Positions 2,921 to 16,045 of a stretch of 64,000 nucleotides of DNA are shown piece by piece. Within the stretch, counting starts at the first letter, position 1. Each line of letters opens with the position of its first letter. The position numbers and the translations under genes are program-made. The DNA is from Oscillospiraceae bacterium (GTDB lineage Bacteria; Bacillota; Clostridia; Oscillospirales; Acutalibacteraceae): assembly GCA_015066565.1 (NCBI GenBank), contig SVOB01000001.1:1054001-1118000 (forward strand), in the 5' to 3' direction. Under the pieces are notes generated by a model that had not been told where the DNA came from, searched no databases, and worked only from the letters and a program-made list of their open reading frames with translations.

Positions 2921-4402
2921 TTATTTTTTGCTCTTTTTTTTACTCTGACCGTAGCCGTAGCTATAACCGTAACCGTAGCCATAGCCGTATTTTCCACCGC
3001 CGCGGTATGCTTTAATTCGGTTTGTAAAGTTACCCTCTGCGATATTGTAAACGCAACCGGCGATCTCTGTATTTGAAGTACCGAGGTCTTCAATTGTTCT
3101 GCGGATTCTTCTGACAGAAGCGGTATCCTCTCTTACGACGAGGAGAATGGCATCAGCCTCAGCCGCAAGAATAGCCGTGTCGGCAATAACGCCTGCAGGC
3201 GCAGAGTCAATAATGATATAGTCAAATTCCTTTTCAAGCTCTGCCATTATCTTGCCGAGCTTATCGTCCGAAAGAACTTCGGCGGCGTCCGGAATGTTTT
3301 CGCCGTTAAGCATAAGGAAGAGGTTGTATTTTTCGGAGTATCTTATGGAATCAGCCGCTGTCTTATCGCCTGTGATAATTCCGTAGAAGCCTGTTTCGCC
3401 GCCAGCGGGAATGCCGAGAGCTGCGCTTACGGCAGGTTTACGGAGGTCGCCGTCGATAAGAAGAACGGATTTTCCGTTCTTTGCAAGAGAGATGGCAAGG
3501 TTACAGGAAATTGTTGTCTTGCCCTCGTCCTCAAGCGTACTCGTGATAACAAAGGTCTTTGCGTTTTCCTTAGCGGCGAACGATTCAACCTTTGTTCTGA
3601 TAAGCTTGAAGGTTTCAACAAAACTGAAGCCCGTGTTTTTATCTGTAATAAGGATAGCTGACTTAGAGTTCTTCTTGCTGACCTTGCCGACCGAGCCGAT
3701 AAGCTTGAGGTCAAGTCTCTTTGTAATATCGTCCGAGCTCTTAACGGTATCCTTAGCGGCAACGATAAGACAGAAGAGAGCGATTGTTGCAAAGGCGCCT
3801 ATGACAAGACCTGCCGCCGAATAGAGAAGCTTGGTTCTGTCCGAATCGGGCTTGTCTGCCTTGTAAGGCTTATCAACAACCTTAAGAGTTGTAGCCGGGA
3901 AAGCGTCCTGAGCAAAGTCGTCATAGTGGTTTGTATAAGCAACCGCAATTGCATAAGAAACCTCGGGGTCATCGGTAACAACAGTCAGGTCAACCCACGA
4001 AGTATCGGTAATAACATTAGCCTTAATGCAGGATGCGACCTGAGTATATGTCATTGTTTTGCCGGTCGCCGATTTAACATCATCCGCAACCAACTGTAAA
4101 AGACCTCTCGTAGTAGTAAGTAAGTAGCGATAGTTATTCGCAAGAGTTCCGCCGGCAACAAGGTCCGAAGACGACTGACCGGTAACAATTGTACCCTCCG
4201 ACCTGTTGTTTGCAACGAATTTAATATTTGTAGAATACTTGGGAACATAGCTGAGCTTCGCATAAGCGAAACCGATTGCCGCGCATACAACAGCGACAAT
4301 AACTACAATCCACCATCTTTTAAGCACATAGCTGATATAGTTAAAAATAGAATCTACCGAGGTATCTTCGGTTTCAGCATGGCCTCTGGGGTTATACTCC
4401 AT
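2921..4402 (-). CDS. Fused Wzz/CpsD-type bacterial tyrosine kinase (exopolysaccharide chain-length control)
   Basis: This 493-residue single chain joins a polysaccharide co-polymerase part to a BY-kinase. There are two membrane segments (about 31-49 and 192-215) flanking an extracellular loop with a Wzz-like start (KYSTNIKFVANNR). The cytoplasmic kinase carries Walker A (STLEDEGKTT, about 288-297), Walker A' (VLLIDGDLRKP, about 313-323) and Walker B (YIIIDSAP, about 395-402). The tail holds eight tyrosines in a Gly-Tyr-rich run from 466 to 484, the expected autophosphorylation cluster, and ends in lysines. BY-kinases control export and chain length of capsule or exopolysaccharide. Most Firmicutes split these functions between CpsC and CpsD, and the fused form is the arrangement common in proteobacteria. 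It has its own promoter and terminator, so it is a single-gene unit here. Confidence 0.9.
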   Translation of the reverse strand: MEYNPRGHAETEDTSVDSIFNYISYVLKRWWIVVIVAVVCAAIGFAYAKLSYVPKYSTNIKFVANNRSEGTIVTGQSSSDLVAGGTLANNYRYLLTTTRGLLQLVADDVKSATGKTMTYTQVASCIKANVITDTSWVDLTVVTDDPEVSYAIAVAYTNHYDDFAQDAFPATTLKVVDKPYKADKPDSDRTKLLYSAAGLVIGAFATIALFCLIVAAKDTVKSSDDITKRLDLKLIGSVGKVSKKNSKSAILITDKNTGFSFVETFKLIRTKVESFAAKENAKTFVITSTLEDEGKTTISCNLAISLAKNGKSVLLIDGDLRKPAVSAALGIPAGGETGFYGIITGDKTAADSIRYSEKYNLFLMLNGENIPDAAEVLSDDKLGKIMAELEKEFDYIIIDSAPAGVIADTAILAAEADAILLVVREDTASVRRIRRTIEDLGTSNTEIAGCVYNIAEGNFTNRIKAYRGGGKYGYGYGYGYSYGYGQSKKKSKK

Positions 4403-4477: not shown

Positions 4478-6169
4478 TTATTGTTTTTCAATAATTTTCT
4501 TATCTTCAATACGGATTTCACGGTTACAGATATCAAGAGCCGCCGCCTTATGGGAAATAATAATACAGGTAACGCCTTTGATGCTTTTAATGTTTTCAAG
4601 CAGTTGCTTTTCCGTCTGCTCGTCGAGGGCGCTTGTCGCCTCGTCAAGAAGAATTATATCGGAATTGCACAGAAGCGCTCTTGCAACCGCAATTCGCTGA
4701 ACCTGTCCCTCGGAAAGTCCGTGGCCTTTTTCGCCGATTACCGTATCAAGTCCCTCGGGAAGCTCATTTATAAAGCTGTCGGCGCAGGCAAGTTCAGCGG
4801 CGCGCATAATCTCTTCATCCGTTGCGTCCGTCCTGACAAAAGCTATATTATCTCTTATAGTTCCGCTGAAGAGCATATTGCCCTGGGGAACATAGGAAAA
4901 CAGTTTTCTTGTCTTTATATCCGAATAATACTGCCTGTCCGCGTCAATATAGACATTACCCTCTTCGGGCTCAAGAACGCCGAGCATTATTTTAAACAGA
5001 GTACTCTTTCCTATACCTGAAATACCCGTTATAGCGATAAAATCGCCTCGGTTGACGGTGAAATCGGCTTTTTCAAGAACTATATCACGGTCATATTTAA
5101 AGGTTACGTTATCAAATCTTATATCCTTAAAGGATTCTGATAGCGAGGAAAACTCAATATTCTCTTCATTTTTAACCGCCTCGTCCTTAACGTCCTCAAT
5201 TTCGACAAGTCTTTCAGCCGAAGCATAGATATTGAAATAGGCGGGGATTAATCCCGCAAGCATAACAAGCGGAGTCTGAATCTGGTTTATGAGCTGAAGC
5301 ATAGCGGTCAGGTCGCCCGGGGAAAGCATTCCTTTATAGAGCTTTACCGCACCCCACGCAAGAGCGCTCGCGAAGCCTGTAACAAAGAACATACCGAGTC
5401 CTGTTGAAGCGATTATAGTTATATAATTCTTACGGAGCTTCTTTTTATAATGCTCCTTCTGAAGCTCGCCTGCACCCGCATTAATTTTATCCTTTATTCC
5501 GAAAACCTTTACAACAAGCATACTCTCAATGCTTTCCTGCATATAGGAACGCAGCTTGCCGAGAGCTGTCTGAACAGCCTTATGCCTTGTCTTGAGCGGT
5601 TTTCTGAAGGCAACTGAAATAAGAATACAGATTACGCCGACAGCAAGCAAAAGCCCGACAAAGGTTTTGTCAATGCTGACCATTATAATAATAGCGGTAA
5701 CAAGCCTTGTTAAAAACGAAGCGAACTGGGGAATCGAATTTGAAATACCGTCACTGATAACGGTAACGTCGCTTGAAAGCCTGTTTAAAAGCTCGCCGCT
5801 GTGATAGGTGCTAATAAGCGTATAGTCCTTATCGAAAATTGCGGAAAATACCCTTGTTTTATAGTCAATAATAAGCTTTCCGTTAAGAACAACCTTGAGA
5901 TGAGCCGAAAGCACATGCAAAACTAACTCTGTTAAGAAAACCATAGCAAGAATGATAAGGTATTTAAAGATTATAGTATCCTTTGCAATCGCAGCGTTAA
6001 CTGTGAACTTAACTATCAACGCAGTTGAAACCGCGCAAACCGAGCTTATAACGTCAGACAGAACAAGGCACAGCAACGTAGGAATCCGTCTTTTTACGGC
6101 GGACATTACGAAGCTGTTGCTCTTTTTAAAATTCTTCTGTTTTTTTAAGTCCTTATTCTTTTTTGCCAT
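4478..6169 (-). CDS. ABC exporter, fused permease and ATPase (last gene of peptide-maturation operon)
   Basis: This 563-residue half-transporter has about six membrane segments in residues 30-320 and a nucleotide-binding domain from about 345. Walker A is GISGIGKST (382-390), the Q-loop is YVPQG (426-430), the signature is LSEGQ (485-489) and Walker B is ILLDEATSALDE (506-517). A homodimer in the cytoplasmic membrane would export a substrate using ATP. There is no N-terminal C39 peptidase domain, so leader removal would need another enzyme. The S26-type peptidase encoded immediately upstream is the obvious candidate. The start codon overlaps the stop of that gene in a TAATG junction, which implies translational coupling. 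From position and family, the exported substrate is probably one or both of the small peptides encoded at 7770-8075. Confidence 0.85.
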   Translation of the reverse strand: MAKKNKDLKKQKNFKKSNSFVMSAVKRRIPTLLCLVLSDVISSVCAVSTALIVKFTVNAAIAKDTIIFKYLIILAMVFLTELVLHVLSAHLKVVLNGKLIIDYKTRVFSAIFDKDYTLISTYHSGELLNRLSSDVTVISDGISNSIPQFASFLTRLVTAIIIMVSIDKTFVGLLLAVGVICILISVAFRKPLKTRHKAVQTALGKLRSYMQESIESMLVVKVFGIKDKINAGAGELQKEHYKKKLRKNYITIIASTGLGMFFVTGFASALAWGAVKLYKGMLSPGDLTAMLQLINQIQTPLVMLAGLIPAYFNIYASAERLVEIEDVKDEAVKNEENIEFSSLSESFKDIRFDNVTFKYDRDIVLEKADFTVNRGDFIAITGISGIGKSTLFKIMLGVLEPEEGNVYIDADRQYYSDIKTRKLFSYVPQGNMLFSGTIRDNIAFVRTDATDEEIMRAAELACADSFINELPEGLDTVIGEKGHGLSEGQVQRIAVARALLCNSDIILLDEATSALDEQTEKQLLENIKSIKGVTCIIISHKAAALDICNREIRIEDKKIIEKQ

Positions 6170-6627
6170 TACTTTTTCTTTCTCAAAGTTCTTTTGATTT
6201 TAGAGCCGACTTTTCTTGCAAAACGTATTTCCCTGTGAAAGTATTTTTCGTGTAAAAAGGCCGGCGAGTCAACCGCAATTCTTTCGCCATTGCGTTCAAC
6301 ATAGGTCATAACGGCGATTACCTGCGAATGCTTTATGCCGTATTCCTTTTCGGTCTGGTTGTCACCGCAGAGGATATAACCGTCTTCGTTTTCGCCGACA
6401 ATTCTGTGCAAAACAAAGCTCCCGTTCTCACGTCTGTAAAACGGGATATCGCCCTTTTTTAAATGAGCGGGCGCTTTGGAAAGCACTGCATAGTCCCTGC
6501 CCTGCTTAAGGGTCGGGTACATACTTCTTCCCGTAACGGGGATTGAAACCTCGCCGCCCGACGAAATCTTTTCTTCGATAATGGGCAGCATTTGCTCAAG
6601 CCTGACTTTTTTAATACTGCCGTCCAT
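6169..6627 (-). CDS. Soluble S24/S26-family (signal-peptidase-like) serine peptidase
   Basis: The 152-residue protein contains the signal peptidase fold motifs GRSMYPTL, with Ser35 as the predicted nucleophile, and FVLHRIVGENEDGYILCGDN. In the second motif His74 stands where bacterial type I signal peptidases carry a catalytic Lys. A Ser/His arrangement is the one known from SipW and ER-type signal peptidases. No membrane segment is seen at either end, and the C-terminus is strongly basic (KIKRTLRKKK). It is therefore more likely a cytoplasmic or peripherally bound processing protease than a housekeeping signal peptidase. It overlaps both neighbours at TAATG junctions (6627 and 6169), placing it in lock-step with the PqqD-like protein and the exporter. 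Leader-peptide cleavage is inferred. Confidence 0.78.
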   Translation of the reverse strand: MDGSIKKVRLEQMLPIIEEKISSGGEVSIPVTGRSMYPTLKQGRDYAVLSKAPAHLKKGDIPFYRRENGSFVLHRIVGENEDGYILCGDNQTEKEYGIKHSQVIAVMTYVERNGERIAVDSPAFLHEKYFHREIRFARKVGSKIKRTLRKKK

Positions 6628-6893
6628 TATTCTTCAATAAAGTCCTTTTCCTTTAGCTTATTTATAAAGATATTTACGTCTTTTAAAGCCGTTTCAAAAT
6701 CAACGCTGTATTCTTCGGTGATTTTTTCGGCTATTTTTTCAGGCGTATTATCGGTCTGAAGCTCTTTCCAGACTACCGAGCCAACCTCGTTGAGAGTAAG
6801 CATACCCTTAAAGCTTACCGCTTGGGCTCCGACGGGAACGACAACGTAGCTTCCCGCAACCGACTGTAACATAAAACCGTCTTTAATCTTCAT
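6627..6893 (-). CDS. PqqD-family peptide-binding protein (RiPP recognition element)
   Basis: The 88-residue protein has the PqqD profile: a beta hairpin start (KDGFMLQSVAGSYVVVPVG), then LNEVGSVVWKELQ, TPEKIAEKITEEY and a closing helix ending VNIFINKLKEKDFIEE. PqqD-type domains bind leader peptides of ribosomally made, modified peptides and present them to modifying enzymes. In lasso peptide systems the same fold is the B1 protein. I chose the ATG at 6893 because an AAGGAG site lies seven bases upstream. The frame stays open further, to 6929, but that part overlaps the kinase gene without its own ribosome binding site. The gene overlaps the 3' end of the kinase gene by 11 bases. Confidence 0.85.
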   Translation of the reverse strand: MKIKDGFMLQSVAGSYVVVPVGAQAVSFKGMLTLNEVGSVVWKELQTDNTPEKIAEKITEEYSVDFETALKDVNIFINKLKEKDFIEE

Positions 6894-7635
6894 TGTTTTT
6901 CTCCTTGAGAACATTGTCGAGTTTTTCACCTGTCAGCGCTTCAAACGAAGTCCTGACAGCGTCGAGCGAAATATCGCACGATAATTTATAAACGGGAACC
7001 TTTCTTAAAAGCCCATCGAGAAAGCCGAAGAGAATTTCCATATGCTTTGGCGAGGCAATCGGCTGCGTCGTCTGTTTGTAAATCAGAGGAAGAATCTCTG
7101 CGGTTGATAATTTTCTGATTGAATTTGTTTTTGAGCGTTCAATAAAAACAATTGCGCCGATAGGAACGCCCAGATTCATACTTTCGTCGTGTTTTCCGCT
7201 GAACGGAGTTCCGTAAGCCTTGTATTCGCCGTCGTAAAACCTGATGGCAGGCTTATCGTCATTAAGAATTCGGGTTTCGGGAATATACTGAGTCCAAAGG
7301 TGAGTATGAGTTGACTTACCCACGCCGCTGTCGGCTGAAAAAAGATATGCCTTGCCCTTATATTCAACTACGGACGAGTGAAGCATCATACCGTTAAAGC
7401 TTAAAAGGCGACGGTAAAAGCTCTCGCCCGCAAGGGCATACTCGAATTCATCGTCGTTAATGTCATCTGAAATACGAAATCTTTTCCGTTCGTATTCCTC
7501 AACCTTAACGTCAACTGTAATATCCGGTTTTCTGTCGTCATTTTCGGGAAGAAGATACTTTCTGCTTCTTTTCTGCATAAGCGAATGATAGCAGTTCATT
7601 CCGACAACCAAATCTGCAAAATAGAATTTTTCCAT
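6883..7635 (-). CDS. HPr kinase/phosphorylase-like protein of a peptide-maturation locus
   Basis: The 250-residue protein has a C-terminal P-loop of the HprK/PEPCK type: SADSGVGKST, followed by HLWTQ and the metal-binding-like NDDKPAI run. A less conserved N-terminal part precedes it. Housekeeping HprK is longer and acts on HPr Ser46, with a characteristic N-terminal domain not seen here. HprK-like kinases of this shorter type accompany lasso and other RiPP loci, where some phosphorylate a serine of the peptide. Next to a PqqD-like protein, a peptidase and an exporter, action on the small peptides encoded just upstream is a reasonable inference. The ATG at 7635 is preferred over an in-frame TTG at 7641. 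Neither has a good Shine-Dalgarno sequence, suggesting low translation. Confidence 0.8.
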   Translation of the reverse strand: MEKFYFADLVVGMNCYHSLMQKRSRKYLLPENDDRKPDITVDVKVEEYERKRFRISDDINDDEFEYALAGESFYRRLLSFNGMMLHSSVVEYKGKAYLFSADSGVGKSTHTHLWTQYIPETRILNDDKPAIRFYDGEYKAYGTPFSGKHDESMNLGVPIGAIVFIERSKTNSIRKLSTAEILPLIYKQTTQPIASPKHMEILFGFLDGLLRKVPVYKLSCDISLDAVRTSFEALTGEKLDNVLKEKNNED

Positions 7636-7654
7636 AGCCAAAAATTATTACTTA

Positions 7655-7684
7655 CAAAAAAATAAAGAGCAGTCACCTGCTCTT
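7655..7684 (-). terminator. Intrinsic terminator between precursor-peptide genes and kinase gene
   Basis: An eight-base-pair stem AAGAGCAG/CTGCTCTT with a GTGA loop is followed on the minus strand by TATTTTTTT. It lies inside the presumed operon, so most transcripts should end after the peptide genes and only read-through reaches the processing genes. Confidence 0.85.
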
Positions 7685-7688
7685 ACAC

Positions 7689-7739
7689 GGTGACAAATCA
7701 CCACAACTACCAACAGGGGGTCTCGTAAGAAACCCCCTG
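7689..7739 (-). promoter_or_regulatory. Two extra hairpins ahead of the internal terminator
   Basis: Between the 40-residue peptide gene and the terminator are two further perfect inverted repeats on the transcript. One is CAGGGGGT/ACCCCCTG (7714-7739) and the other is GGTGA/TCACC (7689-7702). Neither has a U-tract. They may stabilise the 3' end of the short peptide mRNA or tune read-through. Both ideas are inference. Confidence 0.6.
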
Positions 7740-7769
7740 CGATATTTTAATTATTTAACCTGATAGGTA

Positions 7770-7892
7770 TTAGTACCACTCACCGTCATCGGGGTCGCCG
7801 GGGCCAACAGGTGTTGAAGTTGACCAGTCAGCAATGACATCCTCAACCTCGAAGAGAGCTACTTCGAAATCAGGTGCTTTGTACTGTTTCAT
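7770..7892 (-). CDS. Small precursor-like peptide 1 (40 residues)
   Basis: This short frame begins MKQYKAPDF and ends PDDGEWY. It shares a pattern with the 44-residue peptide encoded just upstream: Y, two residues, PDF, four residues, FE, then an acidic D-(I/V)-I. A stretch of Ser/Thr (S24, T25, S26, T27) follows, then GPGDP-x-DG and an aromatic C-terminus. There are no cysteines. An AAAGGAG site lies about 12 bases upstream of the ATG. The first half looks like a leader, the second half like a small polar core. It sits directly upstream of a terminator and then of the kinase, PqqD-like, peptidase and exporter genes. That is the standard position of a RiPP precursor. Function and processed form are unknown. 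Confidence 0.78.
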   Translation of the reverse strand: MKQYKAPDFEVALFEVEDVIADWSTSTPVGPGDPDDGEWY

Positions 7893-7940
7893 AAGCTAAA
7901 CAAGCTCCTTTCAAACATAAATCACACATACATTTCCGAA

Positions 7941-8075
7941 TTACCAAGCCGGTATAACCCCGTCGCCGGGATCTCCCGGGCCAGCTTGCGATATTGATGA
8001 TATAATATCATCTATTTCGAATTCTGTCAATAGAAAATCCGGAGATTCATAAAATTTCCTGTTATCTGAGAACAT
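7941..8075 (-). CDS. Small precursor-like peptide 2 (44 residues)
   Basis: This frame begins MFSDNRKFYESPDF and ends DGVIPAW. Aligned with the 40-residue peptide it keeps Y9, P12-D13-F14, F19-E20, D23 and I25. It also keeps a Ser-rich stretch (S26, S27, S29) and GPGDPGDG at 32-39. The ATG lies 11 bases after the stop of the secreted-protein gene at 8087-9493, with an in-frame TAA directly before it, so this start is fixed. No clear Shine-Dalgarno is seen, and translation is probably coupled to the upstream gene. Two diverged copies of the same motif in tandem argue against chance open frames. Confidence 0.75.
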   Translation of the reverse strand: MFSDNRKFYESPDFLLTEFEIDDIISSISQAGPGDPGDGVIPAW

Positions 8076-9556: not shown

Positions 9557-9585
9557 ATAATAACAAATTATTTATCGTTTGTCAA
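9557..9585 (-). promoter_or_regulatory. Strong promoter of the secreted protein/peptide operon
   Basis: On the minus strand TTGACA (9580-9585) and TATTAT (9557-9562) are 17 bases apart. A TG one base ahead of the -10 gives an extended -10 element. The 5' leader is about 55 bases. Confidence 0.8.
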
Positions 9586-9672: not shown

Positions 9673-10704
9673 TTAAGCAGCGTAGGGATTAACGGGGAGA
9701 GCAACACCTGCTGTTGCATTCTTAACTGCGGCGTAGTCGTCTGATGTAATTGTTCCACTACCGTCAACATCGCCTGCAAATGCAAATGCTCCTGCAAGAG
9801 AAACACCTGCTGTTGCATTCTTAACCGCAGCATAGTCGTCTGATGAAACGTCGCCGCTTCCGTCAACATCGCCGAAGATAACTACTGTATAAGTAGCAAA
9901 TTCGTCTCCGCCTGTTGTATAAACTGTAAGTGTTGCGCCTGTAGCTGTTCCGCTTACTGTGAATGTACCATTTTCAACTGCGAAATAATCAGCAGCGTCA
10001 GCGCCTACGGGGATACCGTAAACATAACCGTTAGCGTCATCAACATAACCTGTGTCAACGCCTGTAAGTACCGGGTCAGCAGCTGCATCAGCGATTACAA
10101 CCGAAACTGCAGCGGGAACTACGAAGGTCTGACCAACGATAGCTTCATCTGTAGCAACGTCTGCGCTTGCACGGGAACCGCAATAGAACTTACCGCCGAT
10201 GTTAGAAGCTGTCTTCTGAGCGGAAGCGTCGAGCTTAATCTCAGCTGTAGCTTCTGTATTAGCAACAAGGTTGAAGGTAAGAACTGTTGTAGCTGTGCTG
10301 TAAAGGGGAGAAGCAACGCCAGAAGCGCTTGAGTTAGGAACGTAAACTGCATAGAATACGCCGTAACCTGTAGGAGCGTCGATAGCGTCTACTGACTGGC
10401 CTTTACGTGTTGCGCCTGCGCCATAGATGTCTGTAAGAACTGCAGAACCGTCAACATAGCTGAATGCGTTTGAATAGAATACGGGAAGACCTACTGTACC
10501 AACATAGAAGTTAGTCTGAAGTTTAACCGTAACCTTTACTTCTGTACCTGTGGGGATGGTTGCCGGAAGGGCAGAACCATCGGTGTTAGTTACCTCTATT
10601 GTCCAAGTAGCTGTTTCGCCGTCAGCGAATGCGCAAATTGAGAAAACACTGAATGCCATAACAACTGCGAGAACGAGGCTTAAAATTTTCTTTGTTTTAG
10701 ACAT
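9673..10704 (-). CDS. Secreted protein with cohesin-like region and C-terminal dockerin
   Basis: The 343-residue protein has a signal peptide (KILSLVLAVVMAFSVFSICAFA). A beta-rich domain follows (about 30-200) beginning TWTIEV, with GTEVKVTVKL and VGTVGLPVFY, similar in outline to cohesin-type beta sandwiches. Then comes a small Ig-like module ending ATYTVVIFGDVDG, and a C-terminal dockerin. The dockerin has two near-identical 22-residue calcium-binding repeats, GDVDGSGDVSSDDYAAVKNA and GDVDGSGTITSDDYAAVKNA. Dockerins bind cohesins to build extracellular assemblies. Carrying both kinds of module would make it an adaptor, but the cohesin reading is tentative. The start at 10704 is chosen because GGAGG lies 11 bases upstream and the signal peptide begins there. 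Confidence 0.8.
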   Translation of the reverse strand: MSKTKKILSLVLAVVMAFSVFSICAFADGETATWTIEVTNTDGSALPATIPTGTEVKVTVKLQTNFYVGTVGLPVFYSNAFSYVDGSAVLTDIYGAGATRKGQSVDAIDAPTGYGVFYAVYVPNSSASGVASPLYSTATTVLTFNLVANTEATAEIKLDASAQKTASNIGGKFYCGSRASADVATDEAIVGQTFVVPAAVSVVIADAAADPVLTGVDTGYVDDANGYVYGIPVGADAADYFAVENGTFTVSGTATGATLTVYTTGGDEFATYTVVIFGDVDGSGDVSSDDYAAVKNATAGVSLAGAFAFAGDVDGSGTITSDDYAAVKNATAGVALPVNPYAA

Positions 10705-10757
10705 TTTTAAAATTGCCTCCTTAATATTCTGTGCCTCTGACCGAGCCCCTTTCCACA

Positions 10758-10781
10758 CGGGAGCAGGTTTCCCCGCTCCCG
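10758..10781 (-). terminator. Hairpin between the two dockerin genes
   Basis: Inverted repeat CGGGAGC/GCTCCCG with a ten-base loop lies between the stop of the 1732-residue gene and the next dockerin gene. No U-tract follows. It may be partial termination or an mRNA-stabilising element. Confidence 0.45.
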
Positions 10782-10846: not shown

Positions 10847-13800
10847 TTATGCCTGTGAAATCTCAATTTCGCCGGAAGCAGCACTGATAATCGCAGAAAC
10901 GTCGTTGACATCGAATGTGCTGTCCTTAGTTGCATCAGCAGCCATCTCCTGAGGAGCTGTGAAGGATGCATAGTTCGAAAGCTTAGCATCTGCCTTAGCT
11001 GCGTCGAAGCCGTCGATTGCGTTATCACCGTTGACATCGCCGAAGATTACTACGAAGTAGTTAGCAAGCGGGATGCTGTTGAGTGTAGCGGAAACGATTG
11101 TGCCTGTGCCGTAGCCGTTAGCTGTAGCTGTAACTGCGAGAGTAGCAGCTTCGCTTGTAGCCTTAACGTGTGCAAGAACTGCGTCAACACCTGTAAGAGC
11201 AAGAGGAGCGATATTTGTAATATACTTAATCTCCTGGTCAACAACTGTTGTATCGTCATTCTTAACAACTTCGATTGTGCACTTGAGTGCGTCGATAGCT
11301 GCCTGAAGAGCATCTGTAACTCTGGCTACCATCTCTTCGTTACGAACTGACGGATAGTAAATCTCAGAATCAACAAGTGCTGTAGCAGAATTGCCGTAGA
11401 GATTCATTGACCAAGCGTCATCGCCTGAACCGAAGTCAGCCTCATAACCGAGAGCCTTAATAAGATCAGCCCACTCTGTATCAAGTGTGCCGTCAACAGC
11501 TGTGAAGTACTCAGCGTTAGCGAACATACCTTCTGCGAGAGCGATCTTAGCGTCAAGATCTGTGAAGCCAACCTGTGTAGCATAGTCGTTAGCCTTAAGC
11601 TTCAACTGTCTCTGAGCTACAAGGAGGTCATACTTAGCCTGGAATACATAGGACTGCATTGTGCCGTCTGCGTTAGCCGTATTAGCAGCTGCAAGAGCGT
11701 CAGTGTAGCGAGCCCATGATACGTCAGTGTAATCAGCAGCGTTGTAATTCTGAGCTGCCGCATAAGCGATTTCCTGAGCGAGCTGTACTCTGCCTGCCGC
11801 AACAGTTGAGTAGCTTCTCGGGATAAGGAAGTCATTGTAGTAGTCAAGCTTGTCGGCGATATCAGAAACGTAAAGTGCTGAATAGTCGGGAGCCTTCCAA
11901 TCAGCGTCTGCCTGAGCATAAGCGTCCATAGCAGCCTGGCTGGGCTGAGTAAGAGTATCAGTAATTGCCTGAGCCTTTGTAGCGTTGCTTTCAGCAGCGA
12001 TTACGGATTCAAGATCCTCATCAGCCTTTTGAGCATCTGCATTTGTATAGGGAAGCCAGCAGCCTTCAAGATATGCCTGAGGAGCTGTAGGTCTCTGATA
12101 CTGAGCGAGAACGTCACGAGCTGTTGTTCTTGCATCCTCATACTTCCAGTAGCCGTAAAGGTTGAAGTCCTGGAAGTTGATCTGGCCATCAGCGCCGATA
12201 AGAGCAGCTGTTTCGCCTGCTGTAAGACCGTTTTCAAGGATTGCTTCGTTACCGGTACTCTCCTTTTTGTCTTCATCAAGAGCTTCAACTGCGTTCTGAA
12301 GAGCATCAAGCTTAGCCTGAATATTTGAATCAGCGTAAATGGTTGCAAAGGTTGCAGTCATTGCAGGAGCGTGAAGAAGTACGGCAGCGTTCTGCATAGC
12401 TGTTGTATAAGCACTGTAGAGAGAAGCTGTGTTGTACTCGTCAGCCATACGGTTCTTACCAAGCTCTGAATTGTAGAGGCTTGCAAGGTCGCCTGCGTCT
12501 GCGAAGTAAAGTTTACCCATATCAACGCCGTCTGTAGGACCGTTGGAGTAGTTGCCGCCTGTAGATGTAGCGTTCCACTTGATTGTACCAATGCCGTAGT
12601 TAGAACCGGATACATACTGGTCAGCTGTCTTTGAAAGAACTACGGGGTGAACTGCAAGCTCGCCGCCTGCGTCAACTGTCTTATTTACTGCGGCAGCAAC
12701 TTCCGAAGAAGTCTTGAGCCATGCAGCATTTGCAGGTGTGAAGGACATTGAAGCAATCTTAAAGCCATAAGTATCACTTGTGTTCTTTGCCTTAGCATAA
12801 ATGCTGTTTGTAACAAAGCTTTCAAGGTCGTCACGGCTCATGCAAAGAGCGTTCTGGCTGATTTCAGCGTCCTGCTTGAGGTAATCAACTGAGTTTGTAC
12901 CGCCTGATGACTTGTTATAGTCATTGGTGTAAGCAGCCTGTACAACATCGGACTGATTCTTAGACTGAGCAATATAAGTAACGATGTATCTGTAGCCGCC
13001 AAGTGTAACGCCGGACTTACCTGTTACATGGTACTTAATGATAATCTGAGTAGCCTTATCAGCCGTGGGAGCTGTTGATGATTTAATATTATAAATCGTT
13101 CTGCCATACGGCGCGATTGTTGTTGAATAACCGGACTGAATTTGGATTGTAAGACCTGAACCGCTGATCTGGTCAATTATTACATTGTAAGCGCTTTCAT
13201 ATGAGAAAGTGCCGTCAGCCCTGTAGTTCTTAAGAAGCATACCTGCCGACTTGTTTGTAATTGTGAGCGTAGAGTCATCTGTGTTATACAGATAATCCGA
13301 TGACCATTTAAGCTCGGGGTCAACATATTCCTGTGAGCCTGTCTTCCAACCAACGAACATGTTGAGGATAGGAAGAACTGCTGTAAGAAGACCGTTTGTA
13401 TAAGCTGTCGGAAGACCGTTAAGGAGTGCCGAAACAACCTTTCTGAGGTTGGTCTGGCTGTTAAGAGTATCAATAGCGCCTGTTGCAGAACTTGCCTTGA
13501 ATACGGAAGTATCGAACAGGTTAGCGCCGAGAACCTTGCCGAGAACTGTATTAAGAAGGTCTCTTACAACAAGGATAAGCTGTGAAAGTGCGCCTGTGTT
13601 TGTACCTGCTGTTCTGAGAACTGAGGTTGACGGGATGCTGAGGAGACCCTCATTACCGCTTGTCGTGTAGTTAGTACCCTTACCGAAAATGTTCTCGAAC
13701 TGAAGGTCGGCAATACCGAGGATGAGCTTGTCACGAAGGACTGTCTCTGTCCAAGTCTTGCCTGAAGCCGCTGTGCAGTTAAGGATCTGCTTAAGCGGAA

Positions 13801-16045
13801 GAAGACCTGTAAGAATCTGGTCAAGCTTAACCCACGGATCCTGAGCAGAAGCAAGGTTGATTGTAAGGCCTGATGTATTAACAAGCTTTTCAATGTTCCA
13901 GCCCCACTCTACGCTTGAGGTAAGAGCCCAGTCAACAATCCAGTCAACAGTAGCTTCCCAAGCCTGCGGGTTGCTTTCAAATGTAGCAAGGTCATAAGTC
14001 TTGCTTGCAGCAAACTTATAGCCGTTTGTTGTATCACGACCGAGGTCTGTGAGATTTGAAAGGTAAGACATACCAACGTCAACGCCCATTGTAAGGATAA
14101 CGTCGAGCCAGTAGTTGTTGTCTTTGCCTGAAACAAGAGTTCTTGCATTGTAGTCTGTGAAGATAAGTGCGTCATAGTTGTATGTGGGCACCATCTGAGT
14201 AACAAGCTCACGAACTACGCAAGCGAGAACCGAACCGACTTCCTGACCTGCAAGATTTTCTGCAGAGGGAAGGATGAGCTGAGGCATAAGAGCCTTAGCG
14301 ATGATAGCTGCAAGAGCTGTGAAAACTTCCTGATTGGACGCGTCGGCGTCTACGAGAGTTTCATAATAGCCTGCATAATTCTGCATGAAGTCAGGACCGA
14401 GAATAGCTTCGGGTGACTCGGGAAGAAGAGTCTGAATAACCTTGCGAAGGTTAGCTACGAGATAAGCGTTGTCGCCTGTCTGAAGTCCGAGTGAAGAATA
14501 AACGTCGGACTTGAGAACTGTCTGAGCTGCCTTGCAAAGGAAATCGTTAAGGCTCTGGAAGAGAGTCTTTGTAGCTGTGCCTGAAGCAGGAACGAATTCG
14601 TTCATGAAATCAGTGCCAACTGTATAGCTGAGATCGAAGAGGCTAAGGAAGTAGTTACCTGTAGTCATATCAATCTCGAACCACTCTTCAATGTCTGTAT
14701 CCTTGTCAACCCAACGATAGTACTGAACGTCATCGCTGTATGCAAGATAATCTGAATATGAGAACTGGAAATAAGGAACATCCTCTGTGAAGAATGTCTG
14801 AACACTAGCGGGAAGAGTTGCAAGAACGTCTGCCGCATCGTCGGCGTAGCCTTCATAAATCTTTGTCTCAGTAGCGCCCATCCATGTAGCAAGCTTATCC
14901 TTTGCCCAACCGTTAAGGAAGATCGGAGCAAGGTCGCCGAATACATAAGGAATGAACTTATAGAAAATAGTAGCTACGCTGTCATTGTTAATGTTAATGG
15001 ACTGGCCTACGAAAGAGGGAAGCCAATAACTACCGGGTTTGTAGTATTTAAGAGCGTCGCCGGCATTGGTTTTGTAAACATAAACGCCTGAGCCGTCAAC
15101 TTCTTCTTCTCTGTAATACTTAGCTTCTTCAGCTGTGTACTTCTGAGCGTTTGAATCCCAAACCATTGCTGTGAAATAAGCAGGCGTGGTGCCCGAAGCA
15201 GCTGTCTTAGCATAGTAAACACGAAGATTTGAAGAAGCAGCTGTGGGAAGAGAATGACCGCTTGTGCACTCGCCCGCAGCGTTTTCTTTATAGGTTGTCA
15301 TGGACTGGGGCTTCTGGAACAGGTTGTTAACGAATGTGTTAAGAACTGTTGAAGGAGCGCCTGTGCCGTTATAATACTGGTCAGCAACTGTCTTAGTATC
15401 ATCGTTTCTTGCCATAAGAGGATAAAGCTTTGAAAGGATGAAGCCGGGAAGGTTGCCGAGAATCTTGTTAACGCTTGCAAGGTTAACCATACCGCCGATG
15501 ATACTGCCGAGATTAATCTTACCGTTTGCAAGGATTGTGTCAACAAGGCTTGCGTTATCCTTGAGAATGTTAAGAAGTCTCTGAACAAGTACTAACTGGT
15601 CGGTATTTGCTCTTCTTGCGTTCTTTGTCCATGATTTAAGCGTAAGGTCATCAAGGTCACCGAGAAGACCGAGCGCGCCACCGATGGTAGCGATTGCGCC
15701 TTCAAGAACGTTCTTTACACTGTCAAGTGAAGCACAAATTTCATCAACAGAGTTGATAGTAATATCAAGCTTGATTGTAGTGACAAGTACGCTCTGGTTA
15801 ACATGGATGCCTTCAAAATCGACATTGTAGAGAACTGTGTCAAGCCAGTCAAAGACGATTGACATTCTCTCTTCAGTTGTCAAACGCGTAACTGCGCCGT
15901 CAGGACTGTAAGCGCCCAAAGTGTTCAGCTGTGCGCCTGTCTGATATGTTGCTTTAGCGGCGAAGGACGCCATTGTGAAGCAAGACATCATCATAACTAC
16001 AGCGAGAAGAACGCTTAAAAGTTTTGTAGTCTTTTTCAAGAACAT
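10847..16045 (-). CDS. Giant secreted protein with FIVAR-like repeat and C-terminal dockerin
   Basis: The 1732-residue protein starts with a signal peptide (LLSVLLAVVMMMSCFTMASFA). The N-terminal 900 residues are long, largely helical in composition, and match no family I recognise. Around 950-1070 there is a beta-type stretch (QSGYSTTIAPYGRTIYNI). Near 1480-1560 lies a FIVAR-like unit (DYTDVSWARYTDALAAANTA, then YDLLVAQRQLKLK), a module found in surface adhesins and glycan-acting proteins. The C-terminus carries an Ig-like lead-in (FVVIFGDVNGD) and a dockerin. Its first repeat is canonical (GDVNGDNAIDGFDAAKADAK) and its second is degenerate (ATKDSTFDVNDVSAIISA). It is probably a surface-assembled structural or adhesive protein. 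GGAGG lies only three bases before the ATG, and a TTG two codons later is an alternative start. Confidence 0.8.
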   Translation of the reverse strand: MFLKKTTKLLSVLLAVVMMMSCFTMASFAAKATYQTGAQLNTLGAYSPDGAVTRLTTEERMSIVFDWLDTVLYNVDFEGIHVNQSVLVTTIKLDITINSVDEICASLDSVKNVLEGAIATIGGALGLLGDLDDLTLKSWTKNARRANTDQLVLVQRLLNILKDNASLVDTILANGKINLGSIIGGMVNLASVNKILGNLPGFILSKLYPLMARNDDTKTVADQYYNGTGAPSTVLNTFVNNLFQKPQSMTTYKENAAGECTSGHSLPTAASSNLRVYYAKTAASGTTPAYFTAMVWDSNAQKYTAEEAKYYREEEVDGSGVYVYKTNAGDALKYYKPGSYWLPSFVGQSININNDSVATIFYKFIPYVFGDLAPIFLNGWAKDKLATWMGATETKIYEGYADDAADVLATLPASVQTFFTEDVPYFQFSYSDYLAYSDDVQYYRWVDKDTDIEEWFEIDMTTGNYFLSLFDLSYTVGTDFMNEFVPASGTATKTLFQSLNDFLCKAAQTVLKSDVYSSLGLQTGDNAYLVANLRKVIQTLLPESPEAILGPDFMQNYAGYYETLVDADASNQEVFTALAAIIAKALMPQLILPSAENLAGQEVGSVLACVVRELVTQMVPTYNYDALIFTDYNARTLVSGKDNNYWLDVILTMGVDVGMSYLSNLTDLGRDTTNGYKFAASKTYDLATFESNPQAWEATVDWIVDWALTSSVEWGWNIEKLVNTSGLTINLASAQDPWVKLDQILTGLLPLKQILNCTAASGKTWTETVLRDKLILGIADLQFENIFGKGTNYTTSGNEGLLSIPSTSVLRTAGTNTGALSQLILVVRDLLNTVLGKVLGANLFDTSVFKASSATGAIDTLNSQTNLRKVVSALLNGLPTAYTNGLLTAVLPILNMFVGWKTGSQEYVDPELKWSSDYLYNTDDSTLTITNKSAGMLLKNYRADGTFSYESAYNVIIDQISGSGLTIQIQSGYSTTIAPYGRTIYNIKSSTAPTADKATQIIIKYHVTGKSGVTLGGYRYIVTYIAQSKNQSDVVQAAYTNDYNKSSGGTNSVDYLKQDAEISQNALCMSRDDLESFVTNSIYAKAKNTSDTYGFKIASMSFTPANAAWLKTSSEVAAAVNKTVDAGGELAVHPVVLSKTADQYVSGSNYGIGTIKWNATSTGGNYSNGPTDGVDMGKLYFADAGDLASLYNSELGKNRMADEYNTASLYSAYTTAMQNAAVLLHAPAMTATFATIYADSNIQAKLDALQNAVEALDEDKKESTGNEAILENGLTAGETAALIGADGQINFQDFNLYGYWKYEDARTTARDVLAQYQRPTAPQAYLEGCWLPYTNADAQKADEDLESVIAAESNATKAQAITDTLTQPSQAAMDAYAQADADWKAPDYSALYVSDIADKLDYYNDFLIPRSYSTVAAGRVQLAQEIAYAAAQNYNAADYTDVSWARYTDALAAANTANADGTMQSYVFQAKYDLLVAQRQLKLKANDYATQVGFTDLDAKIALAEGMFANAEYFTAVDGTLDTEWADLIKALGYEADFGSGDDAWSMNLYGNSATALVDSEIYYPSVRNEEMVARVTDALQAAIDALKCTIEVVKNDDTTVVDQEIKYITNIAPLALTGVDAVLAHVKATSEAATLAVTATANGYGTGTIVSATLNSIPLANYFVVIFGDVNGDNAIDGFDAAKADAKLSNYASFTAPQEMAADATKDSTFDVNDVSAIISAASGEIEISQA

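Follow-up and report, generated by a model that had tools for sequence, protein, structure and literature searches.

The window analysed here is a stretch of 64,000 nucleotides from an Oscillospiraceae bacterium (GTDB family Acutalibacteraceae; assembly GCA_015066565.1, contig SVOB01000001.1, positions 1,054,001 to 1,118,000), a genome that probably comes from rumen or gut. It contains a compact minus-strand locus that likely represents a clostridial variant of the pathway for Linear Polyphosphorylated Peptides (LPP). Four processing genes, hereafter the kit, encode an HprK-like kinase (K; to 6883 from a TTG at 7641 or an ATG at 7635, the latter being the likely start), a PqqD-like recognition element of ribosomally synthesised and post-translationally modified peptides (RiPP recognition element, RRE; B; 6893-6627), an S26/SpI-type peptidase (S; 6627-6169) and an MsbA-like ABC exporter without a peptidase domain (D; 6169-4478). 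The kinase and PqqD frames overlap by 11 bases (6883-6893), and the PqqD/S26 and S26/ABC junctions both read TAATG. Two small genes lie upstream: pepB (8075-7941), encoding precursor peptide B of 44 residues with the leader FYESPDFLLTEFEIDDII, and pepA (7892-7770), encoding precursor peptide A of 40 residues with the leader QYKAPDFEVALFEVEDVI and the C-terminus GEWY. A check of the open reading frames (ORFs) reproduced to the base the gene set, coordinates, overlap and junctions given in a preliminary description of this DNA.

LPP were published in May 2026 for the lpp cluster of Paenibacillus alginolyticus, which comprises LppA, K, B, S, D and N (PMC13381572). According to the text of that paper, lppA-K-B-S-D-N placed in Bacillus subtilis yields a linear core whose Ser3 carries as many as four phosphates, the SipW-like LppS, aided by LppB, cuts after T-1, and the leader consensus is YxxPxVLxHQxIxFETxxS. 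The text calls the S26/SpI peptidase new to RiPP pathways and states that the biological role of LPP is unknown. The preliminary description had seen in our locus the parts needed to bind, phosphorylate, cut and export a small peptide, possibly of a family of its own. This reading is well supported and matches the experimentally studied LPP system as far as the published text describes it, but the peptide kind is already in print as LPP. As in that account, the clostridial locus combines an HprK-like kinase, a discrete RRE, an SpI-type leader peptidase, an MsbA-like exporter and a YxxP leader, with no need of a cyclase. Many clostridial relatives also carry a nucleoside triphosphate (NTP) transferase at the kit, and the window has a polysaccharide-type neighbour gene; Bacilli LPP clusters are also placed in polysaccharide loci (text of PMC13381572).

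The kinase has no Pfam match, PF07475 included, and its NCBIfam matches fall below cut-off (ScmC, 5.1e-9; HprK_rel_A, 0.0014). Since sequence searches of the PDB with the kinase or the peptidase returned nothing useful, we utilised fold comparison instead. The AlphaFold model of the kinase, built from an alignment of 39 sequences, has a mean predicted local distance difference test (pLDDT) score of 94.4, and its first structure matches are HprK/P (1kkm, E 1.3e-6, probability 1.0) and PEPCK, with modest TM-scores of about 0.3-0.6. Numbered from the TTG at 7641, residues H88, G108, K109, N127 and D129 are present in 80 of 80 relatives, S110 in 74 and D128 in 65. These conserved residues agree with the His-Lys-Asp-Asp motif described for lasso precursor kinases in the texts of PMC9266682 and PMC10368454.

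The PqqD-like protein matches PF05402 (E=1.8e-16), and its relatives in the PDB are TbiB1, TfuB1, 9x8z (LppB) and 9x90 (PbaB1). Residues N36 (76/81), Y63 (70/81), D73 (72/81) and F77 (66/81), numbered from codon 6896, align with LppB N33, Y60, D70 and F74, given an offset of 18 between the numbering of the chain and that of the paper, which we infer from the aligned letters. In crystal structure 9x8z, the leader's YxxP motif is gripped at its Tyr and Pro by these LppB residues (text of PMC13381572).

The S26-like protein is best matched by the archaeal-type signal peptidase I family TIGR02228 (9.9e-11, 41.8 bits, below the cut-off of 51.85) and also matches Peptidase_S24 below cut-off (3.1e-4). 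Its putative catalytic residues S35 and H74 are found in 64 of 64 sequences, D89 in 63 of 64 and E95 in 60 of 63. Ser and His are 39 residues apart, just as S29 and H68 are in LppS. In the fold comparison, the peptidase model (pLDDT 92.1) first matched signal peptidase and UmuD/LexA-type structures with E-values of 2e-3 and weaker, none below 1e-3. The exporter consists of ABC_membrane (PF00664) and ABC_tran (PF00005) domains; MsbA_rel is its best NCBIfam match, below cut-off, and a C39 peptidase domain is absent from its domain matches.

Precursors were collected with a profile search, an earlier regular expression having missed some. The clostridial leaders follow the consensus Yx2Px6Fx3D[VI][IL]TxS, which retains YxxP and otherwise differs from the LPP consensus in the text of PMC13381572. 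Among 27 aligned peptides, counted from Tyr, the Tyr itself is present in 26, Pro three residues on in 22, Phe11 in 22, Asp15 in 19, Ile/Leu/Val17 in 25, Thr18 in 16 and Ser20 in 17. Both window peptides contain YxxP. The cores are variable, and Cys occurs in just 2 of the 27 peptides.

The closest relative among the best 80 of 592 kinase loci is a metagenome-assembled genome (MAG) from water-buffalo rumen (L151), with a kinase that is 67% identical and with counterparts of both peptides. In pepA, the leader differs from the L151 copy by ten synonymous and no non-synonymous changes in 21 codons, and the core by four and eight, respectively, in 19 codons. For pepB the corresponding values are three and two in the leader (17 codons) and eight and three in the core (19 codons). 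This pattern of codon changes indicates that pepA and pepB look like real genes. Peptide pairs of which the second ends in WY are found in the window and in L033, L038, L151, L155, L180, L181 and L223, those of L038 and L181 being near-identical.

To place the kit in a wider context, we utilised two sets of loci. A contig scan with a single kinase sequence found no relative, so that a scan with a kinase alignment was used instead, from which the best 80 of 592 loci were kept. The second set is a sample of 200 genomes of one GTDB family, that of the window. In these genomes the kinase occurs at 126 places in 99 genomes and PqqD in at least 124 genomes. A PqqD gene lies no more than 4 kb from at least 79 of the 126 kinase places, on the same strand in at least 77 cases, so the association exceeds chance. 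From this family we examined 101 stretches, namely the window and 100 fetched around kinase or PqqD places. Kinase and PqqD occur together in 57 of them, with S26 in 45 of these and with S26 and an exporter or NTP transferase in 33; the remainder comprise 11 with kinase and S26 without PqqD, 12 with kinase alone and 21 with PqqD alone. Among the best 80 of 592 named loci, the respective counts are 60, 43 and 29, followed by three with kinase and S26 without PqqD and 17 with kinase alone. The co-occurrence of the families, which the preliminary description had suggested as a check, is borne out in both sets. In some genomes the kit is split, with kinase and S26 genes beside housekeeping genes and PqqD and ABC genes elsewhere (L031, L039, L059 and L060 versus L071, L072 and L079).

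The gene order K-B-S-D-N, with N the NTP transferase, is found in L113, L186, L197, L198 and L200, whose carriers include Acetivibrio alkalicellulosi (L197), Herbivorax (L186) and a Desulfotomaculaceae MAG (L200). This is the order of the lppKBSDN construct as written in the text of PMC13381572.

When run over the 200 genomes, the peptide profile identified 96 precursor places in 46 genomes. All 46 belong to the 99 genomes with the kinase and none to the 101 without it (Fisher P=8.6e-18), for a profile seeded from kinase-bearing genomes, which may favour such genomes. At 31 of the 96 places, a listed kinase or PqqD gene lies no more than 5 kb away on the same contig; the other 65 have no listed one at that distance, some contigs being short. 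The genome of the window itself contributes pepA and pepB alone. Conserved small frames, which the preliminary description had suggested looking for, are thus present and follow the kinase from one genome to the next, but they stand beside just 15 of 57 and 16 of 60 kinase-PqqD loci in the two sets.

A second type of precursor, longer and partly Cys-rich, was seen in L123, L124, L125, L127 and L129, with KPExxFESFxLSTxIAAGC-like or IAPESxL-like sequences. This type precedes more distant HprK-like copies that are for the most part separated from their PqqD gene by over 1 kb, and it probably belongs to a sister RiPP system.

Upstream of pepB, the window encodes a 468-residue protein with a signal-peptide-like N-terminus and no Pfam family (9493-8087, minus strand), probably the first cistron. 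Its stop codon lies 11 nt 5' of pepB, for which no ribosome-binding site was seen, and translation of pepB is likely coupled to this preceding gene. pepA has AAAGGAG 5' of its ATG. A promoter-like site, TTGACA-17-TATTAT, is located 5' of the secreted-protein gene (9557..9585, minus strand); it comes from a consensus scan and is weak alone, with 12 such sites found against 8.9 expected in shuffles. Another promoter-like site at 8030-8002 falls inside pepB and was dismissed as probably due to chance. The 134-nt spacer between pepA and the kinase gene folds with a z-score of -5.2, none of 200 shuffles being equally stable. It contains a terminator-like hairpin with a T run (7665..7684, minus strand; seven terminator-like sites were found in the region against 5.3 expected) and, in our reading of the fold, a second hairpin at about 7714-7740. 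pepB and pepA most likely belong to an operon headed by the secreted-protein gene, a gene that the preliminary description did not include.

The same layout of secreted protein and then peptide is present in L151 and, with other secreted proteins, in most precursor-bearing relatives. We assessed this with 101 distinct peptides, all at a profile E of 0.1 or less and 93 of them below 0.001, and took as upstream partner an ORF of 120 or more codons that lies on the strand of the peptide and ends no more than 255 nt 5' of it. Such an ORF precedes 85 of the 101 peptides; 16 lack one, some because the stretch ends there, and L148 has no same-strand ORF upstream of its peptide. The 85 ORFs represent 73 distinct proteins, 58 of them with a complete 5' end. 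A signal-peptide-like start was called in 53 of these 58, as opposed to 146 of 393 other genes in the stretches (P = 8e-16); among controls of at least 300 codons, the value is 95 of 193. The five complete proteins without such a start are those of L146, L150, L188, L255 and L265. The median gap to the peptide is 22 nt, and complete upstream ORFs have a median length of 919 codons.

This holds both at the kit and away from it. Among 44 peptides in kit loci, 43 have an upstream ORF, 34 of them complete and 33 signal-positive; for the 57 peptides away from the kit (those that were fetched, not all 65), the numbers are 42, 35 and 31. The upstream proteins form 31 sequence clusters and are thus not one family. 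Pfam assignments for ten of them comprise one subtilase with BspA-type leucine-rich repeats, one Listeria-Bacteroides repeat with MAM, one transglutaminase-like protein, one sub-cut-off InlB repeat and six proteins without a match.

The link to secreted proteins could be read differently, namely that the kit works chiefly with the secreted proteins, whose tail would bind, or be a substrate of, the same partner as the peptide core, making the peptide a regulator or decoy of the upstream protein. In L188, L106 and L110, the tail of the secreted protein indeed recurs almost unchanged at the end of the peptide (e.g. GWSDWWTPEY / GWSDWWTPEF), and the mean tail similarity over the 85 pairs was reached by just 2 of 10000 re-pairings. 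Moreover, no peptide was found in L070 and L100; there, the kinase gene directly follows the gene for a Thr/Lys-rich protein that ends in SGWY or TGWY, the one in L070 being lipoprotein-like, and these ends resemble the WY end of peptide A. However, three strong pairs among the 85 carry the signal, the majority of pairs have nothing in common, and secreted proteins would exit by Sec, away from the cytosolic kinase. We regard this explanation as unlikely, and kept the tail likeness out of our main claim since it is strong in those three pairs only.

It is probable, in our judgement, that the locus is a clostridial variant of the LPP pathway, which phosphorylates, trims and exports short peptides. 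We call it a variant that would work like the LPP system, rather than a proven member of the LPP clade. As its conserved groove residues suggest, the RRE would bind peptides A and B through their YxxP leader, and the HprK-like kinase would phosphorylate a Ser/Thr close to where the core begins. By means of a Ser-His active site, the S26 peptidase may remove the leader near D[VI]-I-T|x-S, an approximate site, and the MsbA-like pump would export a linear phosphopeptide. Given the co-occurrence across genomes, one kit probably also serves precursors encoded at a distance. The peptide would most likely act outside the cell as partner or tag of a secreted protein. Phosphorylation, cleavage, export and the partner role are all proposed from homology and gene order.

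Several observations weigh against this interpretation. The LPP motif Px9Fx[TA] / FETxxS is present in neither window peptide, both of which show P-x10-D-[VI]-I instead. Among candidate phosphate acceptors, the Ser20 of the family is Trp in peptide A and Ile in peptide B; Ser21 is common to both, although L151 has Phe at this position of its peptide A, and Ser23/Thr24 are common to peptide A and its L151 copy. The pepB core does not change faster than its leader (3/19 versus 2/17 non-synonymous changes). Just 31 of 117 kinase-PqqD loci have an adjacent precursor, with none nearby in 86; after listing of upstream ORFs with ribosome-binding sites, many kit loci still had no visible precursor, which may be encoded elsewhere or be of another type, and 53 of the 99 kinase-bearing genomes have no detected precursor. 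By profile score alone, the RRE is not nearer LppB (34.9 bits) than the lasso RREs TbiB1 (44.1 bits) and TfuB1 (38.3 bits); PbaB1 scores 31.3 bits. The third catalytic acid of LppS, D93, follows the His by 25 residues and has no clear counterpart here, D89 and E95 following it by 15 and 21. The window locus, which otherwise has all working parts of the published system as its text describes them, does not contain the NTP transferase corresponding to LppN; one NTP_transf_5 protein is encoded about 0.9 Mb away (C2:145033). Finally, the signal-peptide calls come from a home-made rule, and some of the peptides tested are from near-identical genomes.

We also considered that the locus arose by decay of a lasso-peptide cluster through loss of the cyclase and of the transglutaminase-like protease B2. 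Paeninodin, pseudomycoidin and Bsf-type phosphorylated lasso peptides (PadeK, PsmK/PsmN, BsfK/BsfB1) share with it the kinase, the RRE, the exporter and a [Y/W]xxP leader, and with relatives of the window the nucleotidyltransferase. The four proteins are common to paeninodin-type clusters in the texts of PMC9266682 and PMC10368454; these also describe that the BsfB1 RRE speeds up the kinase. The RRE also scores similarly close to lasso B1 proteins and to LppB, which points the same way. However, B2 was found in none of 22 genomes from 16 genera, that of the window included, and no cyclase, B2 or radical-SAM domain was detected by Pfam among 12 window proteins between 408 and 16045, radical SAM not having been searched genome-wide. 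The absence of these enzymes from the locus, as stated in the preliminary description, is in agreement with these scans. The sole strong Asn-synthase match of the window's genome is a 569-residue ORF about 370 kb from the kit, and a comparison of coordinates places none of the matches in the 22 genomes near the kit. Whereas phosphorylated lasso systems have a cyclase and B2, the kit has an S26 peptidase, the window peptides lack a C-terminal Ser, and the active residues of kinase and peptidase are kept across relatives. Furthermore, the LPP system functions without a cyclase, as the text of PMC13381572 reports. We therefore reject decay from a lasso cluster as improbable. Likewise, an ordinary HPr kinase or metabolic regulator flanked by chance ORFs, an idea for which HprK/P as first fold match could speak, is rejected as barely credible, because a separate, true HPr kinase (PF07475, E=1e-69) is encoded on another contig (C1), the pepA leader changes are synonymous only, and 46 of 46 precursor-bearing genomes have the kinase.

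The SynChlorMet cassette is a radical-SAM system. Its ScmC and ScmD families (NCBIfam) show a weak likeness to our kinase (the below-cut-off ScmC match) and RRE (1.1e-4, below cut-off), but a radical-SAM domain is absent from the scanned window proteins.

Beyond the putative operon, two further secreted-type proteins are encoded 5' of it, one with a dockerin type I domain (9673-10758) and one with a dockerin match below cut-off (10847-16045). L033 and L038 likewise encode similar proteins upstream of their kit. On the other side, the kit is followed by a neighbour that resembles Wzz and BY-type tyrosine kinases (2921..4402, minus strand; Wzz PF02706, AAA_31). The segment 408-4402, with its Wzz/tyrosine-kinase-like and LysM/Secretin_N proteins, is retained behind the kit in L032 and L038.

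A main difference from the LPP clusters in the text of PMC13381572 is that many clostridial precursors lie away from the kit, behind genes for secreted proteins; leader spacing and motif and the missing lasso B2 also set the window locus apart. That text mentions neither Clostridia nor names in Ruminococ- or Lachnospir-, and the terms secreted, surface protein, extracellular, leucine-rich and dispersed are likewise absent from it; its supplements could list clostridial members. The available text of PMC12710340 and PMC7470986 does not mention the kinase and peptidase terms. In our literature search, which did not extend to the supplements of PMC13381572, neither precursor dispersal nor the link to secreted proteins was found in print.

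Thus, we tentatively hypothesise, with somewhat less than even confidence, that LPP-type phosphopeptides of Clostridia each serve a large secreted protein as its dedicated partner. A single cytosolic kit would be shared by many different peptides, the gene of each standing behind that of its particular secreted protein, and the phosphorylated peptide, in some species further modified by the NTP transferase, may decorate, anchor or activate that protein outside the cell. Our analysis would carry the class beyond the Bacilli genomes mapped in the text of PMC13381572 to Clostridia of rumen and gut, and indicates that whole-genome scans, rather than cluster scans alone, are needed to see the precursors. 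That these accompany genes for secreted proteins, and not modification enzymes only, is a genomic clue to the role of LPP. If true, the partner hypothesis would give these peptides a function and a substrate-partner code.

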